Source: a virus. Taken from it: a DNA stretch of 25,712 nucleotides. Shown here piece after piece: positions 4,148 through 19,878 of this stretch. Each line of letters starts with the position of its first letter. Position 1 is the first letter of the stretch. The translations under genes and the position numbers were made by a program. The stretch is from positions 1-25,712 of IMG/VR virus record IMGVR_UViG_3300047586_000050; one strand, given 5' to 3'. Under the pieces are notes generated by a model. The model saw only the letters and a list, made by a program, of their open reading frames with translations. It was not told the origin of the DNA and made no database searches.

Positions 4148-5626
4148 GTGTTCCCCGCGGTCCTTTCCTACGGCGCCCAGCCCGATCCGCTGATGCTGGC
4201 AGCGGATCGGCTGGGCCGACCTGCGCTCGAGGCGACCGATCCGGTTGCCTGGGTCACGCGTCGCCTCGAGGAGCACGTCTGGTCCAAGCAGGCCGAGATC
4301 CTGCGATCGGTCCGCGACAACCGCCGCACGGCCGTGCCGTCATGCCACGGCGCCGGCAAGAGCTTCATCGCCGCCCGTGCCGCCGCCTGGTGGCTCGAGG
4401 TCCATGAGCCCGGCGAGGCGTTCGTCGTCACGACGGCGCCTTCCTGGCCGCAGGTCCGCGCCATCCTGTGGCGCGAGATCAACCGCGCCCACCGCAAGGG
4501 CCACCTGCGCGGCACGGTCAACCAGACCGAATGGTGGGTCGACGGCGAGATCGTCGCCTTCGGCCGGAAGCCGTCCGACTACAGCCCCGAGGCGTTCCAG
4601 GGCATCCACGCCGCGGCCGTGCTGGTCGTGATCGACGAGGCCTGCGGCGTGCCCAAGGCCCTGTACGACGCGGCCGACACCCTCGTCACCAACGAAGCCA
4701 GCCGCATCCTGGCGATCGGGAACCCCGACGACCCGTCCAGCGAGTTCGCGACGCTGTGCCGCCCGAGCTCCGGCTGGAACGTGATCCGGATCCGCGCCGC
4801 CGACACGCCCAACCTCTCCGGCGAGGCCGTGCCGGACAAGCTCCACGAGCTGCTCATCAGCAAGCTCTGGGTCGAGGAGAAGGCGATCAGCTGGGGCGTG
4901 GGCAGCCCGCTCTACATGGCCAAGATCGATGGCGAGTTCCCCGAGAACGCCGAGGACACCGTGATCCCGCTGGGCTTCATCAGGGCCTGCCAGCGCGAGG
5001 ATCGGCCGGCGGCGTCCGGTGAGCCTGTGGAGCTGGGCGTCGACGTCGGCGGCGGCGGGGACGAGACGGTCATCTACGAACGTCGCGGGAGCGGCATCGG
5101 CAAGCGCTGGAGCGACCACGGCATCGACTCCGAGGTCGTGGTCGACAAGGTGATGGTCGCCCTGGCCGAATCCAAGGCCACCAAGGTCAAGGTCGACACG
5201 ATCGGCATCGGCTGGGGCGTGGCCGGCTCGCTCGAGCGCCGCGTCCGCGGCATGGAGCCCAAGGTCGCGGTAGTCCGGATCAATGTCGGCGAGGCCTCGA
5301 CCGATCCGGCCCGCTTCCCCAAACTGCGCGACGAGATCTGGTGGACAGCTCGCGAGCTGATCCAGGCCGGCGCTCTCGACCTGCGCGGCCTCGATGACGA
5401 CACCGTCGCCCAGCTGTCGGCCCCGAAGTACGCGATCGACGCGTCGGGCCGCGTCAAGGTCGAGCCCAAGGACGAGACCAGAGCCCGGATCGGGCGATCG
5501 CCCGACGACGCCGACGCGTTCCTGCTCGCCTTCATGGAGCCGCGCCGGGCCGGCCTGAGCGACTTCTATCGGGCCGAGACCGAACGACTCCGCGCGATGC
5601 GCGAGAAAGCGAAGGCCACCGCATGA
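4148..5626 (+). CDS. terL: Terminase large subunit (packaging ATPase and nuclease)
   Basis: The chosen start is GTG 4148, 2 nt after the previous stop with GGGGAG upstream, giving 492 residues; ATG 4193 is the alternative. The ATPase domain shows a Walker A Cys-His-Gly-Ala-Gly-Lys-Ser (66-72) and a Walker B Leu-Val-Val-Ile-Asp-Glu-Ala (159-165), with the motor-coupling stretch Ile-Leu-Ala-Ile-Gly-Asn-Pro after it. The C-terminal RNase H-like nuclease shows its acidic residues in Gly-Val-Asp-Val-Gly (D299), Lys-Val-Asp-Thr-Ile-Gly (D350) and Ser-Pro-Asp-Asp-Ala-Asp-Ala (about 451-457). The enzyme pumps phage DNA into the prohead through the portal and cuts concatemers. All expected catalytic elements are present, so it looks functional. 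The stop is coupled (ATGA) to the next gene. Confidence 0.95.
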   Translation: MFPAVLSYGAQPDPLMLAADRLGRPALEATDPVAWVTRRLEEHVWSKQAEILRSVRDNRRTAVPSCHGAGKSFIAARAAAWWLEVHEPGEAFVVTTAPSWPQVRAILWREINRAHRKGHLRGTVNQTEWWVDGEIVAFGRKPSDYSPEAFQGIHAAAVLVVIDEACGVPKALYDAADTLVTNEASRILAIGNPDDPSSEFATLCRPSSGWNVIRIRAADTPNLSGEAVPDKLHELLISKLWVEEKAISWGVGSPLYMAKIDGEFPENAEDTVIPLGFIRACQREDRPAASGEPVELGVDVGGGGDETVIYERRGSGIGKRWSDHGIDSEVVVDKVMVALAESKATKVKVDTIGIGWGVAGSLERRVRGMEPKVAVVRINVGEASTDPARFPKLRDEIWWTARELIQAGALDLRGLDDDTVAQLSAPKYAIDASGRVKVEPKDETRARIGRSPDDADAFLLAFMEPRRAGLSDFYRAETERLRAMREKAKATA

Positions 5627-5865
5627 CCACGACCCGCCGCTACCTCTGCCGTCGCGATCTCGCCAACCCGCTCAAGGCCGCTCTCCGGACCCGGGAGGTC
5701 CTCACCGAGTGGCAGACCCTCCAGGTCTCCACCGCTCTGGGCGTGAAGTTCCGCCACCACGCCCGCGTGACGCTCCGCCGGCCCTGGTGGATGCCCGGGC
5801 CGCTCTTCCGCTTGCTCCTGGCCTCGATCGTGCTCGAGACCGAGAACGAGGAGCGAGAGCGATGA
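5623..5865 (+). CDS. Small basic protein of unknown function between TerL and portal
   Basis: This 80-residue frame is coupled at both ends: its ATG overlaps the terminase stop and its TGA overlaps the portal start (ATGA in each case). The product is Arg-rich with little acidic content until the last eight residues, which are mostly Glu and Arg. A hydrophobic patch at about residues 58-71 (Pro-Gly-Pro-Leu-Phe-Arg-Leu-Leu-Leu-Ala) is too short and charged to be a convincing membrane span. I do not recognise a family. Position suggests a packaging or portal accessory, but this is only context. Confidence 0.55.
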   Translation: MTTTRRYLCRRDLANPLKAALRTREVLTEWQTLQVSTALGVKFRHHARVTLRRPWWMPGPLFRLLLASIVLETENEERER

Positions 5866-7865
5866 CCACTGCGGCCGACCTCGGAATGGCGCCGATCCTG
5901 CTGCCGAGCGGCGAGCAGATCTGGGTCCGTCTCGCCGGCACGATGCTGGCCAAGGCCACGATCCCGGTCGGCGAGCCGGCGGTCAGTTCCAAGGCCCTTG
6001 CGGACCTTGCCCGCACGCTCGGCACGGACCAGACGACGCTCGGGCCAGGCGCGCCGATCCCGCCCGGCCACACCGATGAAGGCGCACCGCGCCGCTGGGA
6101 CTACCGGATCGGGACCAACATCCCACCGCGCCCGCGCAACGACGAGACCTACAGCTTCGACACGCTCCGCTCGTTCGTGCGCAACTACGACGTCGCCCGC
6201 CTGTGCATCGAGAAGCGTAAGGACGACCTGCGCTCGCTGACCTGGAGCGTCCGGCCGCGGCCGGTCGAGGGCATGACGCGGACCGAGCGGACCGCCCAGC
6301 GGAAGAATGCCGAGGCCGCCATCAATGAGGCGACCGGCTTCCTGCTCACGCCCGACCAAGAGATCATGTGGGGTCCCTGGCTCATGAAGTGGGCGCACGA
6401 TCTGTTCAGCATCGACGCGGCCACGATCTACCTGCGCCCGACCCTCGGCGGCGACCTCTTCGGCCTCGAGGTCGTGGACGGCGCGACGATCAAGGTCCTG
6501 CTCGACCAGCAGGGGCGCCTGCCACAGCCGCCCGAGCCCGCCTACGTCCAGATCGTCAAGGGCATGCCGTGGGGCTGGTACACCCGCGGCCAGGTCGTCT
6601 ATGCGCCCTACTGGCCGCAGACCATGTCACCCTACGGCAGCCCGCCGATCGAGTGGGTGATGATGGCCGCCAACCGGGCCATGCGTCGCCAGACGATCGA
6701 CCTCGCCCGGTTCACCGACGGCAACATCCCGACCGCCCTGCTCAAGATGCCGTCCGAATGGCCGCTGGCCCAGCTGCGCGAGTTCAACGACTGGATGGTC
6801 GAGCTCACCGCCGGTAACGACCAGGCGCGGTCTCACTTCCTGCCGGTCCCCGACTCGGGCGGCACGAACCCGGCCCAGGTGCTCAACACCGAGCCCACCA
6901 CCGAAGGCGAACGCTGGCTGCTGCACATGACCTGCTGGGCCTACGGCGTCAACCCGTCCGAGATCGGCTTCGTGGATCCGGGGTCGGGCATGGGCGGCAA
7001 GGGCTTCGCCGAGGTCGGCCAGGCGGTCTCGTTCCGGCGGTCTATCCGCAACATCGCCCTCCACCTCAAGGGCATCATGGACTCCATCCTCGGGGTGGTG
7101 CCGCGCTGGGCGAACCTGGAGCTGTTCTGCCCGGACCTCGAGCAGAGCGAGGACACCCTGGAGAAGGCCGAGGCCGACAAGATCTACTGGTCGCTCGGCG
7201 GACTCTCGACTGACGAGATCCGCGAGGACCGTCTCGACCGCGACTCCATCGGCCTGGGCAATACCGTCGTCACCGGTCAGGGCGTCGTCCAGCTCGTGGC
7301 GGACCTCCTCGAGGGCCCCGAGCCAGTCCCGGCCGGTCTCGTGCCCTTTGCTGGCGAGAGCCCCTCGACCCCGGTCGAGTCGCAGAGCAAGGCCAGCGAG
7401 ACGCTCGGCACGCCGGGCAACGCAGCCCCCGAATCGCCGAGCGCCGCGCCGGGTAAGAACACCGTGACCGAGGCTGCCGGCAAGCCGCCCGCCGATGAAG
7501 CCGTCGCGTCCGAGGAGAAGGCCGCCCCGGAAACCGTCGCGAAGGTTGCCGGTCTGGGCGACGACCTGGGGCGCTGGGAGCGCAAGGCTCTCAAGGCTCT
7601 CAAGGATGGTCGGTCCCCGGCGGTCCGCTTCGAGTCGGGGGTCATTCCGCGCGGAACGTCCGACCTGCTGCGCGATCGCCTGGCCAAGACCACCGACGTC
7701 GCCGGCGTGCGGGACGCCTTCGCGCTCGCCAAGGCGGCGGGTGAATCCGTCGCCCCTTTAGCGGTCCCGCGCTCGAGCTCCGCGACCTCTTCGCCAACTG
7801 GTTCACCCAGCAGGGCCATTCCCTCGTCGGCCACCTCGGGCTTCGGAAGGCGGCTCTATCCGTGA
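5862..7865 (+). CDS. Portal protein (unshifted product), C-terminal end probably replaced by -1 frameshift
   Basis: The start ATG 5862 is coupled to the previous stop; the unshifted product has 667 residues. The core (about 90-470) has portal features: a region entering the fold with an Arg-Asn-Tyr-Asp-Val-Ala-Arg motif and Glu-Lys-Arg-Lys-Asp-Asp, then Tyr-Gly-Ser-Pro-Pro-Ile-Glu-Trp and a Gly-Met-Gly-Gly-Lys-Gly-Phe-Ala-Glu-Val loop. It should form the dodecameric DNA channel of the head. Residues about 470-560 are an Ala/Pro/Glu-rich linker; 565-630 are a helical module with Arg-Trp-Glu-Arg-Lys-Ala-Leu-Lys. After codon 633 the unshifted frame turns into Ser/Pro/Thr-rich low-complexity sequence. 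A slippery heptamer sits exactly there (7754-7760), and the -1 frame leads into the MuF-like gene, giving an 866-residue fusion. Confidence 0.9.
   Translation: MTTAADLGMAPILLPSGEQIWVRLAGTMLAKATIPVGEPAVSSKALADLARTLGTDQTTLGPGAPIPPGHTDEGAPRRWDYRIGTNIPPRPRNDETYSFDTLRSFVRNYDVARLCIEKRKDDLRSLTWSVRPRPVEGMTRTERTAQRKNAEAAINEATGFLLTPDQEIMWGPWLMKWAHDLFSIDAATIYLRPTLGGDLFGLEVVDGATIKVLLDQQGRLPQPPEPAYVQIVKGMPWGWYTRGQVVYAPYWPQTMSPYGSPPIEWVMMAANRAMRRQTIDLARFTDGNIPTALLKMPSEWPLAQLREFNDWMVELTAGNDQARSHFLPVPDSGGTNPAQVLNTEPTTEGERWLLHMTCWAYGVNPSEIGFVDPGSGMGGKGFAEVGQAVSFRRSIRNIALHLKGIMDSILGVVPRWANLELFCPDLEQSEDTLEKAEADKIYWSLGGLSTDEIREDRLDRDSIGLGNTVVTGQGVVQLVADLLEGPEPVPAGLVPFAGESPSTPVESQSKASETLGTPGNAAPESPSAAPGKNTVTEAAGKPPADEAVASEEKAAPETVAKVAGLGDDLGRWERKALKALKDGRSPAVRFESGVIPRGTSDLLRDRLAKTTDVAGVRDAFALAKAAGESVAPLAVPRSSSATSSPTGSPSRAIPSSATSGFGRRLYP
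7754..7787 (+). promoter_or_regulatory. Candidate -1 frameshift site joining portal to MuF-like protein
   Basis: The heptamer C_CCT_TTA (7754-7760) lies in the portal frame as X_XXY_YYZ with CCC, TTT and A, the tandem-slippage form. Slipping back one base continues as AGC GGT CCC in the frame of the downstream head gene. That frame opens only 9 nt earlier, after its TGA at 7742-7744. A possible stimulatory hairpin follows: GGTC (7763-7766) pairs with GACC (7784-7787), then a 2-nt bulge, then GCG (7769-7771) with CGC (7781-7783) around a 9-nt loop. The 2-nt spacer is shorter than usual. The site is seen directly; its use in translation is inference. Confidence 0.55.
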
Positions 7866-8461
7866 GCGACCTGTCCGCGTTCGATTGGGATGCCGGCATG
7901 CACGTGCTGGTCGACCCCTCCGCCGACCTTCTTGCCCGCATGTTTGCGGCAGGCTACCTCCCGGTGGCCCAGGCCAAGGTCGCCGATGGCGCCTACGACC
8001 TGTCGAACACGCGCGCCGCGGCATACGCCCGGGCACGTGCGGCCGAACTCGTCGCCGGCGTCGATGGCGTGACGCACGACCAGGTCACCACGATGCTGCG
8101 CGACCTGCTCGGCACCGGCCTCGAGGACGCTTCCGTGTCACAGGCAGACATCGCCGCCGCGATTGAAGACCTCTTTGCGGGCATGACCGGCGAGCGTGCC
8201 GGCACGATCGCACGCACGGAGCTCGGCTTTGCCGGCAACCGCGGCACGATCGGCGCTGGCCGCGACACGGGTGCCATCGCTGCGCGGGTCTCCGACGGCA
8301 CCGAATCCGACCAGGAATGCCAGGACGCCGACGGCCAGCTCTGGACGCTCGACCAGGCCGACGAAAACGCCCTCGAGCACCCCAACTGCGGCCGCTCATT
8401 CGAGATGGTCTACGCAGACGAACTCAGCGACGCCGAGCTCGCGGACATAGGAGATCAGTGA
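7862..8461 (+). CDS. MuF-like minor head (head morphogenesis) protein
   Basis: As a separate frame it starts at GTG 7862, overlapping the portal stop (GTGA), with 199 residues. The -1 frame is open back to 7745, and residues encoded before the GTG (Phe-Ala-Asn-Trp-Phe-Thr-Gln-Gln-Gly-His) look genuine, so the main product may be the C-terminal part of a portal fusion. Family marks are an Ile-Ala-Arg-Thr-Glu motif (116-120), a Cys at 153 in Asp-Gln-Glu-Cys-Gln-Asp, and the closing His-Pro-Asn-Cys-Gly-Arg-Ser-Phe (173-180), typical of the SPP1 gp7/Mu F family. These proteins sit inside the head near the portal and aid assembly or DNA ejection. The stop overlaps the protease start (TGATG). Confidence 0.8.
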   Translation: MSDLSAFDWDAGMHVLVDPSADLLARMFAAGYLPVAQAKVADGAYDLSNTRAAAYARARAAELVAGVDGVTHDQVTTMLRDLLGTGLEDASVSQADIAAAIEDLFAGMTGERAGTIARTELGFAGNRGTIGAGRDTGAIAARVSDGTESDQECQDADGQLWTLDQADENALEHPNCGRSFEMVYADELSDAELADIGDQ

Positions 8462-11370: not shown

Positions 11371-12879
11371 ATGACCGCCGTCGTTCGTCCCACCAGACCG
11401 TCCCTGGGCCGCGGGCTGTTCGTCGCCGCGTCGAACGCCAGCGCAGCGGACAAGGCGGCGGCCGACTACGTCTGCTCCGGCGTGGCGGATGAGGTGCAGA
11501 TCAACGTGGCCATCACGGCGCTTCCAGCAGCGGGTGGTGTGGTCCGCCTGTCGAACGGCAACTTCACCATCGCGGCTACGGTCGCCGTCCCGAGTTACGT
11601 CACCCTGCGCGGCGAGGGCCGACACGCGACGGTCATAACCGGAGTCGCCGGGATGACGGCAACGATGCTCACACTCGGAGCGTCGTTCTCAGTCCTGGAG
11701 AGCGTGCGGATCATCGCACCCACGACCCTCACGAACGATGCCGTGACCTTCGCCAATGAGTCAGACGGCACGACGGTTCGCGATGTCCAGATGTCGGGTG
11801 GGGGAAACGCCACGATCTGGATGCTGTCGGTACGGTCCTCATACCGCTTCCGCCTCGACAACGTGTTCATCTCGACCGACTCGAACGGCATCAACATTGT
11901 CAACGATGGCTCGGCTTACAACGTCGGGAACTCATGCGTCTCCCAGGTCGAAGTATGGACGACGACGACCGGACGAACCGCTTGGCAAATCTCAGGCAGC
12001 ACGGCCGCGCTGAGATCGGAAAACCTGATCTCGTTTAGCTACATCGCTGCGCTCTGCTCGGTCGCCCACGCTGCTGGGTCCGTGGGACTCAACATCATCA
12101 ACTCCTACAATCTCGCCTTCCACCTGGTCGATCTGGAGAACGCCGCCATCTCCCTCAACATCACGGGGTCGGTCGGCAGTGGACCCCCTTCATATGGGCT
12201 CGTCTTTACGGGGCTCTACGCCTCGGGCGCCGCCTCAGTTGTCATGGATGCCAACACGAAGAATGTGACGGTTGCGGCGGGCAATGCCGGTGGGGCCGCC
12301 ATCGGCGTCGATGACACGAACGGAGCGGGCGGAGTGTCCGCCTCGCCGTCCTGGTCATTCTTCGGCCCCAGCATCACAACCGCCTATTTGATGGCCTCGA
12401 ACGGCGGCAACGCTGGCGTCGCTTCAACCACCGCATCGTCAGCGGGCAGCGGCGGTAACGGGATGATCGGCACGTCGGGTGGTGCCGCTGGCGCAAACTC
12501 CGCTGGCGCGGCGCGAGGCGTGGGCAACTCGCCCACCATCGGCGGCGGTGGGGGAGGCGGCTTTGCATCTGGTGGAAATAACGAACTCGTCGGTGGGACG
12601 AGTTCCTGGCCGGGGCCATTCGGCTATCTGACTCTCGACAACCACGGTGCCGTTCACGCCGCAGGCGGGGTGGGCGTCTTTCCTCCTATTGGCACAACGC
12701 TCGGCGGCGCTGGTGGCGGCGGTGGCGGCTCCGGGAACGGAGTGGTCGGCGGCGCAGGTGGTAACGGAACCTCGGTCGGTGCTGGGGGCGGCGGCGGTGG
12801 GGCGTCCACCAACGGTTTCGCCTCGGGCAAGGGCGGCGACGGCGGTCCTGGGCTCTGCATCATCACGACGATCACATGA
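11371..12879 (+). CDS. Right-handed beta-helix fibre with polyglycine-rich C-terminus
   Basis: The protein has 502 residues. Residues 15-85 carry the pectate-lyase-superfamily entry motif common in phage spikes: Ala-Ala-Asp-Tyr-Val-Cys, Asp-Glu-Val-Gln-Ile-Asn, Gly-Gly-Val-Val-Arg-Leu and Leu-Arg-Gly-Glu-Gly. Beta-helix coils follow to about residue 310. Residues 345-495 are Gly/Ala/Ser/Asn-rich with several runs of five to seven glycines and end in Gly-Pro-Gly-Leu-Cys-Ile-Ile-Thr. This composition resembles polyglycine-II bundles described in phage adhesins such as the S16 gp38 tip. It likely binds a surface glycan or receptor. Its place directly after the capsid gene, ahead of the connectors, hints at a head fibre or decoration rather than a tail spike. 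No catalytic residues could be assigned. Confidence 0.7.
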   Translation: MTAVVRPTRPSLGRGLFVAASNASAADKAAADYVCSGVADEVQINVAITALPAAGGVVRLSNGNFTIAATVAVPSYVTLRGEGRHATVITGVAGMTATMLTLGASFSVLESVRIIAPTTLTNDAVTFANESDGTTVRDVQMSGGGNATIWMLSVRSSYRFRLDNVFISTDSNGINIVNDGSAYNVGNSCVSQVEVWTTTTGRTAWQISGSTAALRSENLISFSYIAALCSVAHAAGSVGLNIINSYNLAFHLVDLENAAISLNITGSVGSGPPSYGLVFTGLYASGAASVVMDANTKNVTVAAGNAGGAAIGVDDTNGAGGVSASPSWSFFGPSITTAYLMASNGGNAGVASTTASSAGSGGNGMIGTSGGAAGANSAGAARGVGNSPTIGGGGGGGFASGGNNELVGGTSSWPGPFGYLTLDNHGAVHAAGGVGVFPPIGTTLGGAGGGGGGSGNGVVGGAGGNGTSVGAGGGGGGASTNGFASGKGGDGGPGLCIITTIT

Positions 12880-16992: not shown

Positions 16993-17508
16993 ATGGAAAC
17001 CAGAACGATCGATCTCGGTCCCTGCCGCTGCCCCGGAACGCCCCATGAGCACGACGAGGCCGTGATCCTGCTGCCGGGCTCGATGACCTATGGCGCCCAG
17101 CGGCGCATCCAGTCGGCTTACGCCCTCGAAGTCGAGGACGAGCGGGCCGGTCGCGACCGCTTCGGCGGCCTGGCCGACGCGACTCTCATGGCCACCTGCA
17201 CGGTTAGCTGGACTCCCCAGGGCCCGGACGGCAAGACGCTGCCCGTCGGGATCCGCGAGCCCAATGCCGTGAATGCCATCGACGCGCTCGACCCCCTGAC
17301 GGCGATGGCGCTCCACGACGAGTTCTTCCCGCGGGATGACGCCGGCACCGCCACGGACCGCAACGGCTATTTCCTGCGGGCCATCACCGGAGTGGTACTC
17401 CCAAACCCGTCCGGCGCGCCCTCGGTCGCTGGGCTGCCGGCGTCGCCATCGACGGACTCAGCACCCTCTCCGAAGGCCTCGAAGACGACCAAGCGCGCGA
17501 AGTCCTAG
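16993..17508 (+). CDS. Tail assembly chaperone G
   Basis: The protein has 171 residues behind a strong AAGGAG ribosome site. It opens with Cys-Arg-Cys-Pro-Gly-Thr-Pro-His-Glu-His-Asp, a start seen in chaperones of GC-rich siphophages, and ends in a Pro/Ser/Lys-rich tail. It lies between tail tube and tape measure, the invariant place of the lambda G/GT-type chaperones that coat the tape measure during tail assembly. The heptamer C_CCA_AAC at 17400-17406 is in the G frame, and the -1 frame continues for 102 codons. Thus two products are expected: G of 171 residues and a GT fusion of 240 residues (138 of G, then 102). Confidence 0.85.
   Translation: METRTIDLGPCRCPGTPHEHDEAVILLPGSMTYGAQRRIQSAYALEVEDERAGRDRFGGLADATLMATCTVSWTPQGPDGKTLPVGIREPNAVNAIDALDPLTAMALHDEFFPRDDAGTATDRNGYFLRAITGVVLPNPSGAPSVAGLPASPSTDSAPSPKASKTTKRAKS
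17400..17440 (+). promoter_or_regulatory. -1 programmed frameshift site of the tail chaperones
   Basis: The heptamer C_CCA_AAC (17400-17406) is in frame as X_XXY_YYZ. Four bases downstream a stem-loop can form: CCGGC (17411-17415) with GCCGG (17436-17440), then GCCC (17418-17421) with GGGC (17431-17434), with small bulges and a 9-nt loop. Slippery site, spacer and stem-loop make a standard -1 signal at the position conserved in long-tailed phages. Confidence 0.88.
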
Positions 17509-17714
17509 ACGCCGTAATCGCCCGGGAGATGCGTTGGACACAAGCCGAGCTCGAAGCCGAGACGCCCGAGAGGCGCGAGATCCTCGCTGCGCTGATCTCC
17601 GCCGAGCGGATCGCCGCTATGCCGGCGCGCCTGGCCGCGTTCGGTCAGATGAGCGAGACCGACCAGATGCGCCTCGAGCTCAGGCTCTATCCACAGGACC
17701 CGCCCGATGAATGA
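17406..17714 (+). CDS. Tail assembly chaperone T extension, made as a GT fusion
   Basis: This is the -1 frame reached from the slippery site; it adds 102 residues to the first 138 of G. It is Ala/Glu/Arg-rich and helical, with Trp-Ala-Ala-Gly-Val-Ala-Ile-Asp-Gly-Leu early and Glu-Thr-Asp-Gln-Met-Arg-Leu-Glu-Leu near the end. An internal ATG at 17529 has no ribosome site and would drop the first third, so independent translation is unlikely. In the lambda model the T part binds the tail tube protein while G coats the tape measure. The tape measure start (17707) lies 8 nt inside this frame. Confidence 0.82.
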   Translation, partial: PVRRALGRWAAGVAIDGLSTLSEGLEDDQAREVLDAVIAREMRWTQAELEAETPERREILAALISAERIAAMPARLAAFGQMSETDQMRLELRLYPQDPPDE

Positions 17715-19878
17715 CGTCGGCTTCCGGCTGTTCGCGACCGACGACGTCTCCGGTCCGGCTGGCCGGGCGCGCTCGAGCCTGCTGAGCCTCGGCTCTTCCG
17801 CGTCCACCGTCAGCGGCGGTCTCGGCAAGATCGGCTCGGGGGCCCTGACAGCCGCGAAGAACCTGGCCATGCTCGGCGTGCCGGTCGCCCTGGCCCTCGG
17901 CGGCATCGCGGTCGCCAGCACGAACGCGGCCCGCCAGTTCCAATCCGATATGGCCCTCATCCAGACGCAGGCCGGAGCCAGCGCGGACGAAGTCACCGCC
18001 ATGTCGGCCGCCGTCCTCAAGCTCGCGCCGCAGACGGGCACCGGGCCTGACGAGCTGGCCGCCGGCCTCTATCACGTCGAGTCGGCGGGCATGCGCGGCG
18101 CCAAGGCCCTGGACATCCTCAAGGTCGCGGCCGAGGGCGCCAAGGTGGGCGGGGCCGATCTTGAGAGCACCACCAACGCCCTGATCGCGGCGCAGCAGTC
18201 AGGCGTCAAGGGCGTCGAGGACATGGCCGGGGCGATGGGCACCCTGAACGCCATCGTCGGCGCCGGCAACATGCGGATGCAGGATCTCACCGACGCCATG
18301 GGCACGGGCGTGCTCTCGACGGCGAAGAACTACGGCGTCTCGATCCAGAGCGTCGGCTCAGCCCTGGCCAGCATGACCGACCAGGGCATCCCCGCGGTCG
18401 ACGCCGCGACTCGCCTCAGCAGCGCGATGCGCCTCATGGCCGCGCCGACCACCAAGGCCGCGGCGGAACTGAAGTCGATCGGCCTGTCTTCGACGCAGCT
18501 CGCGAACGACATGCGCGGCCCCGGCGGCATCGACACCGCGATCCACGACCTCAAGGATCACCTGGACAAGTCCGGGCTCTCCCTCACGCAGCAGGCTGCC
18601 CTGATCGCGGCCGCCTTTGGCGGCAAGCAATCGGGCGCGATCCTGACCCTGATCGGCAACGTCGGTCTGCTCGATCAGAAGGTCGCCGCGGTCAACAAGG
18701 GCGCCGGCGACTTCGGGGCAGCCTGGCAGGCGACCGGCAAGACGGTGGCGGAGCAGCAGGCGGAGGTCGGGGCCAGTCTCGACTCTCTCAAGATCCAGCT
18801 CGGCACCGAATTGCTGCCGGTCGAGCAGCGCGTCCTGACCGGGCTCACCACGCTGTTCTCCTCGCCCGCCGTCCAGCAGGGCATCGTCGATTTCGGCAAG
18901 GGCATCAACGACCTGTTCAGCGCGGACAACATCGCGGGCGCCGAGAAGTTCGTTCAGGACGTGATCCCGGGGATCGAGGACTTCGCCAAGACCGCCCTGC
19001 CGCCGTTTATCGCCGGCCTGAAGGTAGCGGGCCAGATCACGAAGGAAGCCTTCGACCTGTTCAACCAGCTGCCCGAACCCCTCAAAGCAGCGATCATCGG
19101 CGGCCTGGCCGTCAATAAGCTCTCCGGCGGCCTGATCAGCTCGGGCGTCATGGACATCATCAAGGCCGCGGGGTCGACGGCAGCGGGCGGAGGCGGGGGC
19201 GTCGGAAGCCTGCTCGGCGTTCAGAAGGTCTTCGTGGTCAACATGGCCGAGGGGGGCATGGGTCCTGGCGGGGTGGTCTCTCCGCTCACTCCGGCCGAGG
19301 AGGTCGCGCCTACCGGCCTCGCTGCCATCGTTCCGGCACTCCTGCCGGCGGCTCTCATCGTCGCCGCATCAGTTGGCGTCATCTCCCTGTTGCAGGGCCA
19401 ATTCGACCCAACGGGCGGCAACCGGGCGAAGGTGGACCAGACGGCCCTTCAGGCCGCGGCTGCCGGTAAATACCTCACCGGGGCTCAACGCAACGACCTC
19501 GCGAGCCTGGGCATCCGCGGCAGCAGCGACCAGATGTCGGCTGAGGCAAAAGCCTACCTCAAGCAGATCGCGGACAATACTCTGCCGGCCAACATCGCCA
19601 TAACCTCCGCGCGCCGTAACGCCTCCGATACCTCCGATCTCAACCTCATTCGCACCATCGACACCAACACGGGCGCGTTGCGCGGGATGCGCGACATCCT
19701 CACTCCGGCCATCGACGAGAACTCGCGCGCGTTGCGCGGGATGCGCGACCTCAAGCCGCCGCCGGTCGTCGTCCCGGCGCCGGTCGTCAACGTCACCGTC
19801 TCGACTACCGTCTCGGCGAAAGACGTGACCACCGGCCAGGCCGCCCGCGTCTGGTACGGAACGATCAGGCCGGTATGA
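17707..19878 (+). CDS. Tail tape measure protein
   Basis: The protein has 723 residues. The first 60 are a typical start (Ala-Thr-Asp-Asp-Val-Ser-Gly-Pro-Ala) leading to a hydrophobic helix at about 52-72. Residues 75-330 match the TP901-type tape measure core: Phe-Gln-Ser-Asp-Met-Ala-Leu-Ile-Gln-Thr-Gln-Ala-Gly, and Leu-Tyr-His-Val-Glu-Ser-Ala-Gly-Met-Arg-Gly. A second hydrophobic stretch lies at about 537-562. Near the C-terminus an Ala-Leu-Arg-Gly-Met-Arg-Asp motif occurs twice. Using the general relation of about 1.5 Angstrom per residue, the tail would be near 110 nm, at the short to medium end for siphophages. It fills the tail tube, sets its length and helps DNA entry. The stop overlaps the next start (ATGA). 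Confidence 0.92.
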   Translation: MNDVGFRLFATDDVSGPAGRARSSLLSLGSSASTVSGGLGKIGSGALTAAKNLAMLGVPVALALGGIAVASTNAARQFQSDMALIQTQAGASADEVTAMSAAVLKLAPQTGTGPDELAAGLYHVESAGMRGAKALDILKVAAEGAKVGGADLESTTNALIAAQQSGVKGVEDMAGAMGTLNAIVGAGNMRMQDLTDAMGTGVLSTAKNYGVSIQSVGSALASMTDQGIPAVDAATRLSSAMRLMAAPTTKAAAELKSIGLSSTQLANDMRGPGGIDTAIHDLKDHLDKSGLSLTQQAALIAAAFGGKQSGAILTLIGNVGLLDQKVAAVNKGAGDFGAAWQATGKTVAEQQAEVGASLDSLKIQLGTELLPVEQRVLTGLTTLFSSPAVQQGIVDFGKGINDLFSADNIAGAEKFVQDVIPGIEDFAKTALPPFIAGLKVAGQITKEAFDLFNQLPEPLKAAIIGGLAVNKLSGGLISSGVMDIIKAAGSTAAGGGGGVGSLLGVQKVFVVNMAEGGMGPGGVVSPLTPAEEVAPTGLAAIVPALLPAALIVAASVGVISLLQGQFDPTGGNRAKVDQTALQAAAAGKYLTGAQRNDLASLGIRGSSDQMSAEAKAYLKQIADNTLPANIAITSARRNASDTSDLNLIRTIDTNTGALRGMRDILTPAIDENSRALRGMRDLKPPPVVVPAPVVNVTVSTTVSAKDVTTGQAARVWYGTIRPV
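19673..19749 (+). repeat. 23-bp direct repeat inside the tape measure gene
   Basis: The same 23 bases, beginning GCGCGTTGCGCGGGATG, occur at 19673-19695 and 19727-19749, offset by 54 nt (18 codons). They encode Ala-Leu-Arg-Gly-Met-Arg-Asp twice. Exact identity at nucleotide level suggests a recent duplication of an 18-codon unit; only the motif has stayed identical. Confidence 0.8.

Follow-up and report, generated by a model that had tools for sequence, protein, structure and literature searches.

Sequence comparisons suggest that a tailed-phage portal gene is joined to its MuF-like neighbour by −1 frameshifting

Whether a tailed phage could join its portal protein to a MuF-like head protein when the two lie in different reading frames is a question raised by a 25,712-base virus record (IMG/VR IMGVR_UViG_3300047586_000050), which was analysed as a whole and is referred to below as the window. 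The window is GC-rich (68%) and carries tailed-phage late genes, namely terminase, portal, MuF, further head genes, tail genes and a tape measure. The portal does not form one continuous ORF with MuF; frame 0 stops at 7865, and the MuF-like protein is encoded in the −1 frame, which is open from 7745 to 8461. Within the overlap lies a heptamer, C_CCT_TTA, whose CCT and TTA are frame-0 portal codons (the sequence at 7753–7761 is CCCCTTTAG). We propose that programmed −1 frameshifting at this heptamer yields a minority of 866-residue portal-MuF chains (633 codons plus 233), and with them few MuF copies per ring; we consider this very likely, at roughly 0.85, in the absence of expression data. The position and phase of the heptamer, the −1 stop upstream of it and the open −1 frame had been pointed out in an earlier reading of the DNA without database searches (the sequence-only reading), as had the lengths of the predicted product and its extension, and all of these held. 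The features of the junction are collected in Table 1.

Table 1. Features at the portal-MuF junction, in coordinates of the window
Feature	Position	Strand	Basis or remarks
Portal ORF, frame 0	5862..7865	+	ATG 5862 to TGA 7865; unshifted product 667 residues; phrog_2662 match
GCGGGTGA, possible internal Shine-Dalgarno-like stimulator (lead only)	7737..7744	+	GCGGGTG common to L009; anti-SD energy rank 0.14
Upstream −1 frame stop TGA, the last before the heptamer	7742..7744	+	Sequence
Slippery heptamer C_CCT_TTA	7754..7760	+	In portal frame; C_CCT_TTC at homologous place in L007–L011 and L049; sole TTA codon
−1 frame extension with a MuF-like domain; the predicted shift adds 233 residues	7760..8461	+	phrog_2662 and phrog_2468 matches; codon usage
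Unshifted Ser/Pro-rich portal tail, not in the frame whose coding is conserved	7761..7865	+	Codon usage non-coding-like; unconserved in relatives
GTG overlapping portal stop, possible free-MuF start	7862..7864	+	Sequence; nearest relatives without equivalent

Across the 5,764 codons of 14 window genes TTA occurs just once, in the heptamer, which bears out the earlier remark that this codon is unusual here. The same 5,764 codons contain three in-frame X_XXY_YYZ heptamers with A or T as Y, at 7754 in the portal gene, at 17400 in a presumed tail chaperone gene and at 11802. When Y is A or T, in-frame heptamers of this form number 2 in 7,844 portal-core codons of frameshift-type loci and 46 in 77,054 portal-core codons of all loci then collected, a rate of 0.00026–0.0006 per portal codon. 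A 40-codon overlap would accordingly contain one by chance about 1–2% of the time, or about 5% if any X and Y are allowed; the sequence-only reading had put the chance at about 15% per 39-codon overlap, which proved too high.

Codon usage provides a further view of the junction. A likelihood scan locates the switch from frame 0 to the −1 frame at 7755, within the heptamer, and prefers this position by 15.6 nats to a switch at 7863, adjoining the GTG that overlaps the portal stop. Between the slip site and the GTG at 7862 the −1 frame stands 11 nats above frame 0, and none of the 419 gene segments used as a null for frame-0 coding resembles this stretch; its coding character in the −1 frame is weaker than that of typical genes (2nd percentile).

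The identity of the −1 reading as MuF is shown by profile matches. Portal residues 71–579 match positions 27–510 of the phrog_2662 profile (E=5e-47), and the −1 reading matches positions 493–679 of the same profile (E about 7.5e-12) from about 7781, upstream of the GTG, so that the two domains are collinear on it as successive parts of a single-chain family. The −1 reading also matches the phrog_2468 head morphogenesis profile (E=1.8e-8). A MuF HMM trained on the loci of the survey described below still gives the window 80 bits when built without the window and its kin. AlphaFold modelled the −1 MuF reading poorly before residue 80 (mean pLDDT 60), and the model, which found no PDB match, neither favours nor disfavours translation upstream of the GTG. 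Continuous portal-MuF ORFs are found in known relatives (Sonali, Mufasa8, THSA-485A, Polewnik and MMB025), the Sonali product being annotated 'portal and MuF-like fusion protein'. As a separate observation, a NUDIX-like domain apparently lies between portal and MuF in two Arthrobacter phage fusions (L002 and L006), and one Mufasa8 record is annotated as a MutT/NUDIX hydrolase.

Exact-peptide scans with the window portal and MuF recovered no relatives, and profiles were required. By profile search the nearest relatives are six IMG/VR contigs (L007–L011 and L049), whose portal shares about 42% identity with that of the window; the portal tree groups the window with L007 at a support of 100. Despite coming from separately named metagenomes, the six differ from L009 by only 0–2 bases over the 2.5–3.9 kb compared, and for that reason we count them as one phage seen repeatedly and not as six lineages. 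This phage carries C_CCT_TTC at the place homologous to the C_CCT_TTA of the window. Its portal ends in ..ASAIPFVESRLHPSGLYERS followed by the stop, while the −1 frame carries MuF onward as ..PFRRVKASSVRALRALIAQ.., and the first −1-frame start codon past the heptamer lies 69 nt beyond the portal stop. Loss of the heptamer in close relatives had been set beforehand as an outcome that would refute the frameshift; it was not seen, and conservation of C_CCT_TTY in the nearest relatives is shown. The L009 portal tail past the slip site is 14 residues long and unrelated to the Ser/Pro-rich tail of the window; conservation of the latter at protein level, likewise set beforehand as a refuting outcome, was not seen either. 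The BLASTP alignment of the window with L009 starts only past the −1 stretch that precedes the GTG, and nucleotide conservation between the two upstream of the site (20 of 26 nt) is not exceptional, being equalled in 23 of 288 comparable windows. L009 also has an extra domain of about 100 residues (..DGWHRSLAARHAGKEFIPAYI..), ParB-like by eye, between portal and slip site, at about 5560–5870. In another locus, L066, a zinc-ribbon-like CSQCQ..YCIDCG lies directly before the slip site (about 5490–5590) and is absent from the fused L088 and L089.

To place this junction among others, portal and MuF HMMs were built and 243 fetched portal loci (duplicates included) were classified as fused single ORFs (76), separate genes, −1 overlaps or portals without detected MuF. 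After deduplication, 19 portal-MuF −1 overlaps lack a near start, here meaning an ATG, GTG or TTG no more than 12 nt from the portal stop, and every one of them contains an in-frame heptamer (CCCTTTC, CCCTTTA, TTTTTTC, CCCAAAA, AAAAAAG, AAAAAAC or AAAAAAA). Of the 45 −1 overlaps that served as controls, in which a portal gene overlaps some other ORF, only 1 has a heptamer (Fisher p=2e-15 against the 19), with the caveat that some of the 19 are related by descent and so not independent. Where a near start is present (n=9), four overlaps have a heptamer (the window, L136, L147 and L238) and five have none. In a last scan, run once the pattern was known, all five new −1 loci had one (L215, L223, L225, L238 and L239). 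Apart from the window and its nearest relatives, junction heptamers occur in L061, L066, L084, L086, L091, L093, L100, L104, L107, L112, L113, L119, L136, L147, L158, L196, L215, L223, L225, L238 and L239. In L084 the alignment of the −1 reading to the fusion protein of Sonali begins at residue 12 of that reading, whereas the first ATG is 87 nt past the portal stop. On the portal tree the frameshift state requires at least 12 changes, at least six of them forced by well-supported branches. Recurrence of the arrangement in many lineages is shown; that slipping between portal and MuF also takes place in many unrelated phages is well supported by these comparisons, without experiment. A scan of bacterial genomes gave two relatives only, and when the MuF readings of L093, L112, L104 and L215 were used as queries, no annotation of a portal-MuF frameshift turned up in any isolated phage.

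A clade formed by L100, L104 and L113, with A_AAA_AAG 93 nt upstream of the portal stop, is close enough for the frame under selection to be followed across the heptamer; the window's own relatives are too few and too distant for this, and in the CCCAAAA and A-run clades, where the pairs are more diverged, noise in the substitution profiles precluded a judgement. On the 5' side of the heptamer, substitutions fall chiefly at frame-0 third positions. Between the heptamer and the portal stop they fall instead at −1-frame third positions (14 of 15, 3 of 3 and 11 of 12 in the three pairs, which are not independent), and identity is 29–31 of 31 residues for the −1 peptide against 15–27 of 30 for the frame-0 tail. 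This switch, shown for the one clade, matches what is predicted if translation passes from frame 0 to the −1 frame at the heptamer. Because the portal tail is unconserved, C_CCT_TTY is kept, the design recurs with other heptamers and selection switches frame in one clade, we regard the frameshift interpretation of the sequence-only reading as supported by sequence comparison, frameshifting itself remaining an inference.

Other explanations need to be weighed against this one. Portal and MuF could be separate, translationally coupled genes, with MuF starting at GTG 7862 and the heptamer incidental. In favour of this, a GTGA overlap does exist at the portal stop of the window; five loci (L059, L076, L078, L109 and L143) have an ATG, GTG or TTG over the stop and no heptamer; gene 7 of SPP1 begins within gene 6 with its own Shine-Dalgarno (PMC6316719); and the MuF HMM gains a mere 2.6 bits from the pre-GTG residues. 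However, an NTG in the −1 frame across a TGA stop is almost automatic, both codon usage and the phrog_2662 match begin upstream of the GTG, the nearest relatives have the heptamer without such a start, and the heptamer has only the 1–2% likelihood by chance given above. We consider this explanation unlikely, although it remains possible that free MuF is made from GTG 7862 in addition to the fused chain.

It could also be argued that portal and MuF are one continuous ORF from which a base is missing in the record, through a sequencing or assembly error, or that a fresh frameshift mutation has occurred. Many relatives are indeed continuous fusions, and loss of a base within the C or T run would produce the observed pattern; L066, a single contig whose fused relatives are 66% identical, is possibly an assembly error of just this kind. 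Against this, in all six contigs of the nearest relatives the frame is broken in the same way at the corresponding heptamer, such breaks are invariably −1 and at a heptamer, and the frame under selection switches at the heptamer in another clade, which together leave a missing base very improbable for the window. A shift by RNA polymerase slippage, and not by the ribosome, is plausible where runs of about 8–10 A are present (L086, L091, L093, L100, L104 and L112), and we leave transcriptional slippage as a possibility at these sites. It is all but ruled out for the window, where the runs are just CCCC and TTT, and sites such as CCCTTTC, CCCAAAA and TTTAAAA fit tandem tRNA re-pairing instead.

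Evidence for a stimulator of the proposed slip is slight. The sequence-only reading had noted a modest stem-loop after the site, which failed, as the downstream stem-loop of the window is no more stable than shuffled sequences (z −0.07, +0.55 and +0.47). Strong hairpins are present downstream in L061 and L107, that of L107 about 7 nt past the heptamer. Pairing with the anti-Shine-Dalgarno sequence upstream of the heptamer is modestly above that in the rest of the portal genes (the window has rank 0.14, and the mean rank across 21 loci is 0.27), and the window and L009 have in common a GCGGGTG 10 nt before the heptamer. Both the hairpins and a Shine-Dalgarno-like stimulator are possible leads and no more. 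At all four CCCTTT sites (window 7744–7759, L009, L107 and L066) a CCG lies a few bases 5' of the heptamer, which may be chance.

In the frameshift model that we favour, most ribosomes would end the portal at 7865, and a minority would slip one base back on C_CCT_TTA, the CCT and TTA tRNAs re-pairing with CCC and TTT, so that reading would resume at AGC (7760) and run into the MuF gene. The two types of chain would then co-assemble, placing MuF on a limited number of ring subunits facing the head interior, and a low shift frequency would mean few MuF-bearing subunits per ring. Slipping itself, its frequency, the mixed rings and the purpose of having few MuF copies are all inferred, with no experiment behind them. 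The 12-fold portal is usually regarded as a ring of identical subunits. If our model is correct, the frameshift would fix the number of MuF copies genetically and make the ring itself mixed, many portal annotations would lack a C-terminal extension, and many such MuF genes would have no real start. Counting MuF copies matters beyond structure, since in some temperate phages MuF-type proteins bring toxin domains into the head (PMC6316719).

Several known systems share features with this model. The single chains of phrog_2662 (Arthrobacter Sonali and Mufasa8; Microbacterium clusters EA/EB, PMC7302621) have the same two domains in the same order as the window, but as one ORF with MuF on every portal subunit, whereas the window requires a frameshift. 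The SPP1 portal, gp6, binds a MuF protein, gp7, few copies of which thereby reach the procapsid interior, and among virions lacking gp7 only about 25% are infectious (PMC6316719); unlike in our model, gp7 is a separate protein with its own start and is held non-covalently. The capsid frameshifts of Lactobacillus A2, Listeria A118, A500 and PSA, and T3/T7 (PMC5009743) likewise extend a structural head protein, although there it is the major capsid protein with a mostly Ig-like extension, and not a portal with MuF. West Nile virus has a proven −1 site of the same CCC-UUU class (C_CCU_UUU, PMC11507841), but one read by a eukaryotic ribosome with an essential downstream pseudoknot. That phage structural genes use frameshifting is well known (PMC5009743), and fusions of portal and MuF genes are known too (PMC7302621); what would be new is a frameshift joining portal to MuF. 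We found no description of one in the open literature searched, most subscription journals lying outside its scope; in the PRFect paper MuF-like genes appear only among predicted 'False Positives' (PMC10885494). A bolder reading, which we consider more likely than not, is that portal-MuF frameshifting is a recurrent and hitherto undescribed strategy of tailed phages, in which lineages change among three states (one fused ORF, a −1 frameshift, separate genes) and the rings of frameshifting phages are deliberately mixed, with MuF on only a few subunits.

The tail-assembly chaperones G/G-T (Xu 2004, as cited in PMC5009743) also use a −1 shift on X_XXY_YYZ, by which a minor product with a C-terminal extension is made in a fixed proportion, but they involve other genes and another function, being two small ORFs just 5' of the tape measure, whereas the site discussed here is in the portal gene. 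The window has its tape measure gene at 17707–19878, and its presumed chaperone ORF at 16993–17508 contains an in-frame C_CCA_AAC at 17400, from which the −1 frame runs on without a stop until shortly before the tape measure gene (region 16993–17710). A classic G/G-T frameshift in the same phage is therefore likely here; the chaperone identity is presumed, with no PHROG match to confirm it. Elsewhere in the window, an 881-residue ORF at 2981–5626 matches terminase from residue 432 onward only, and the true terminase start is therefore probably downstream of the start of this ORF.
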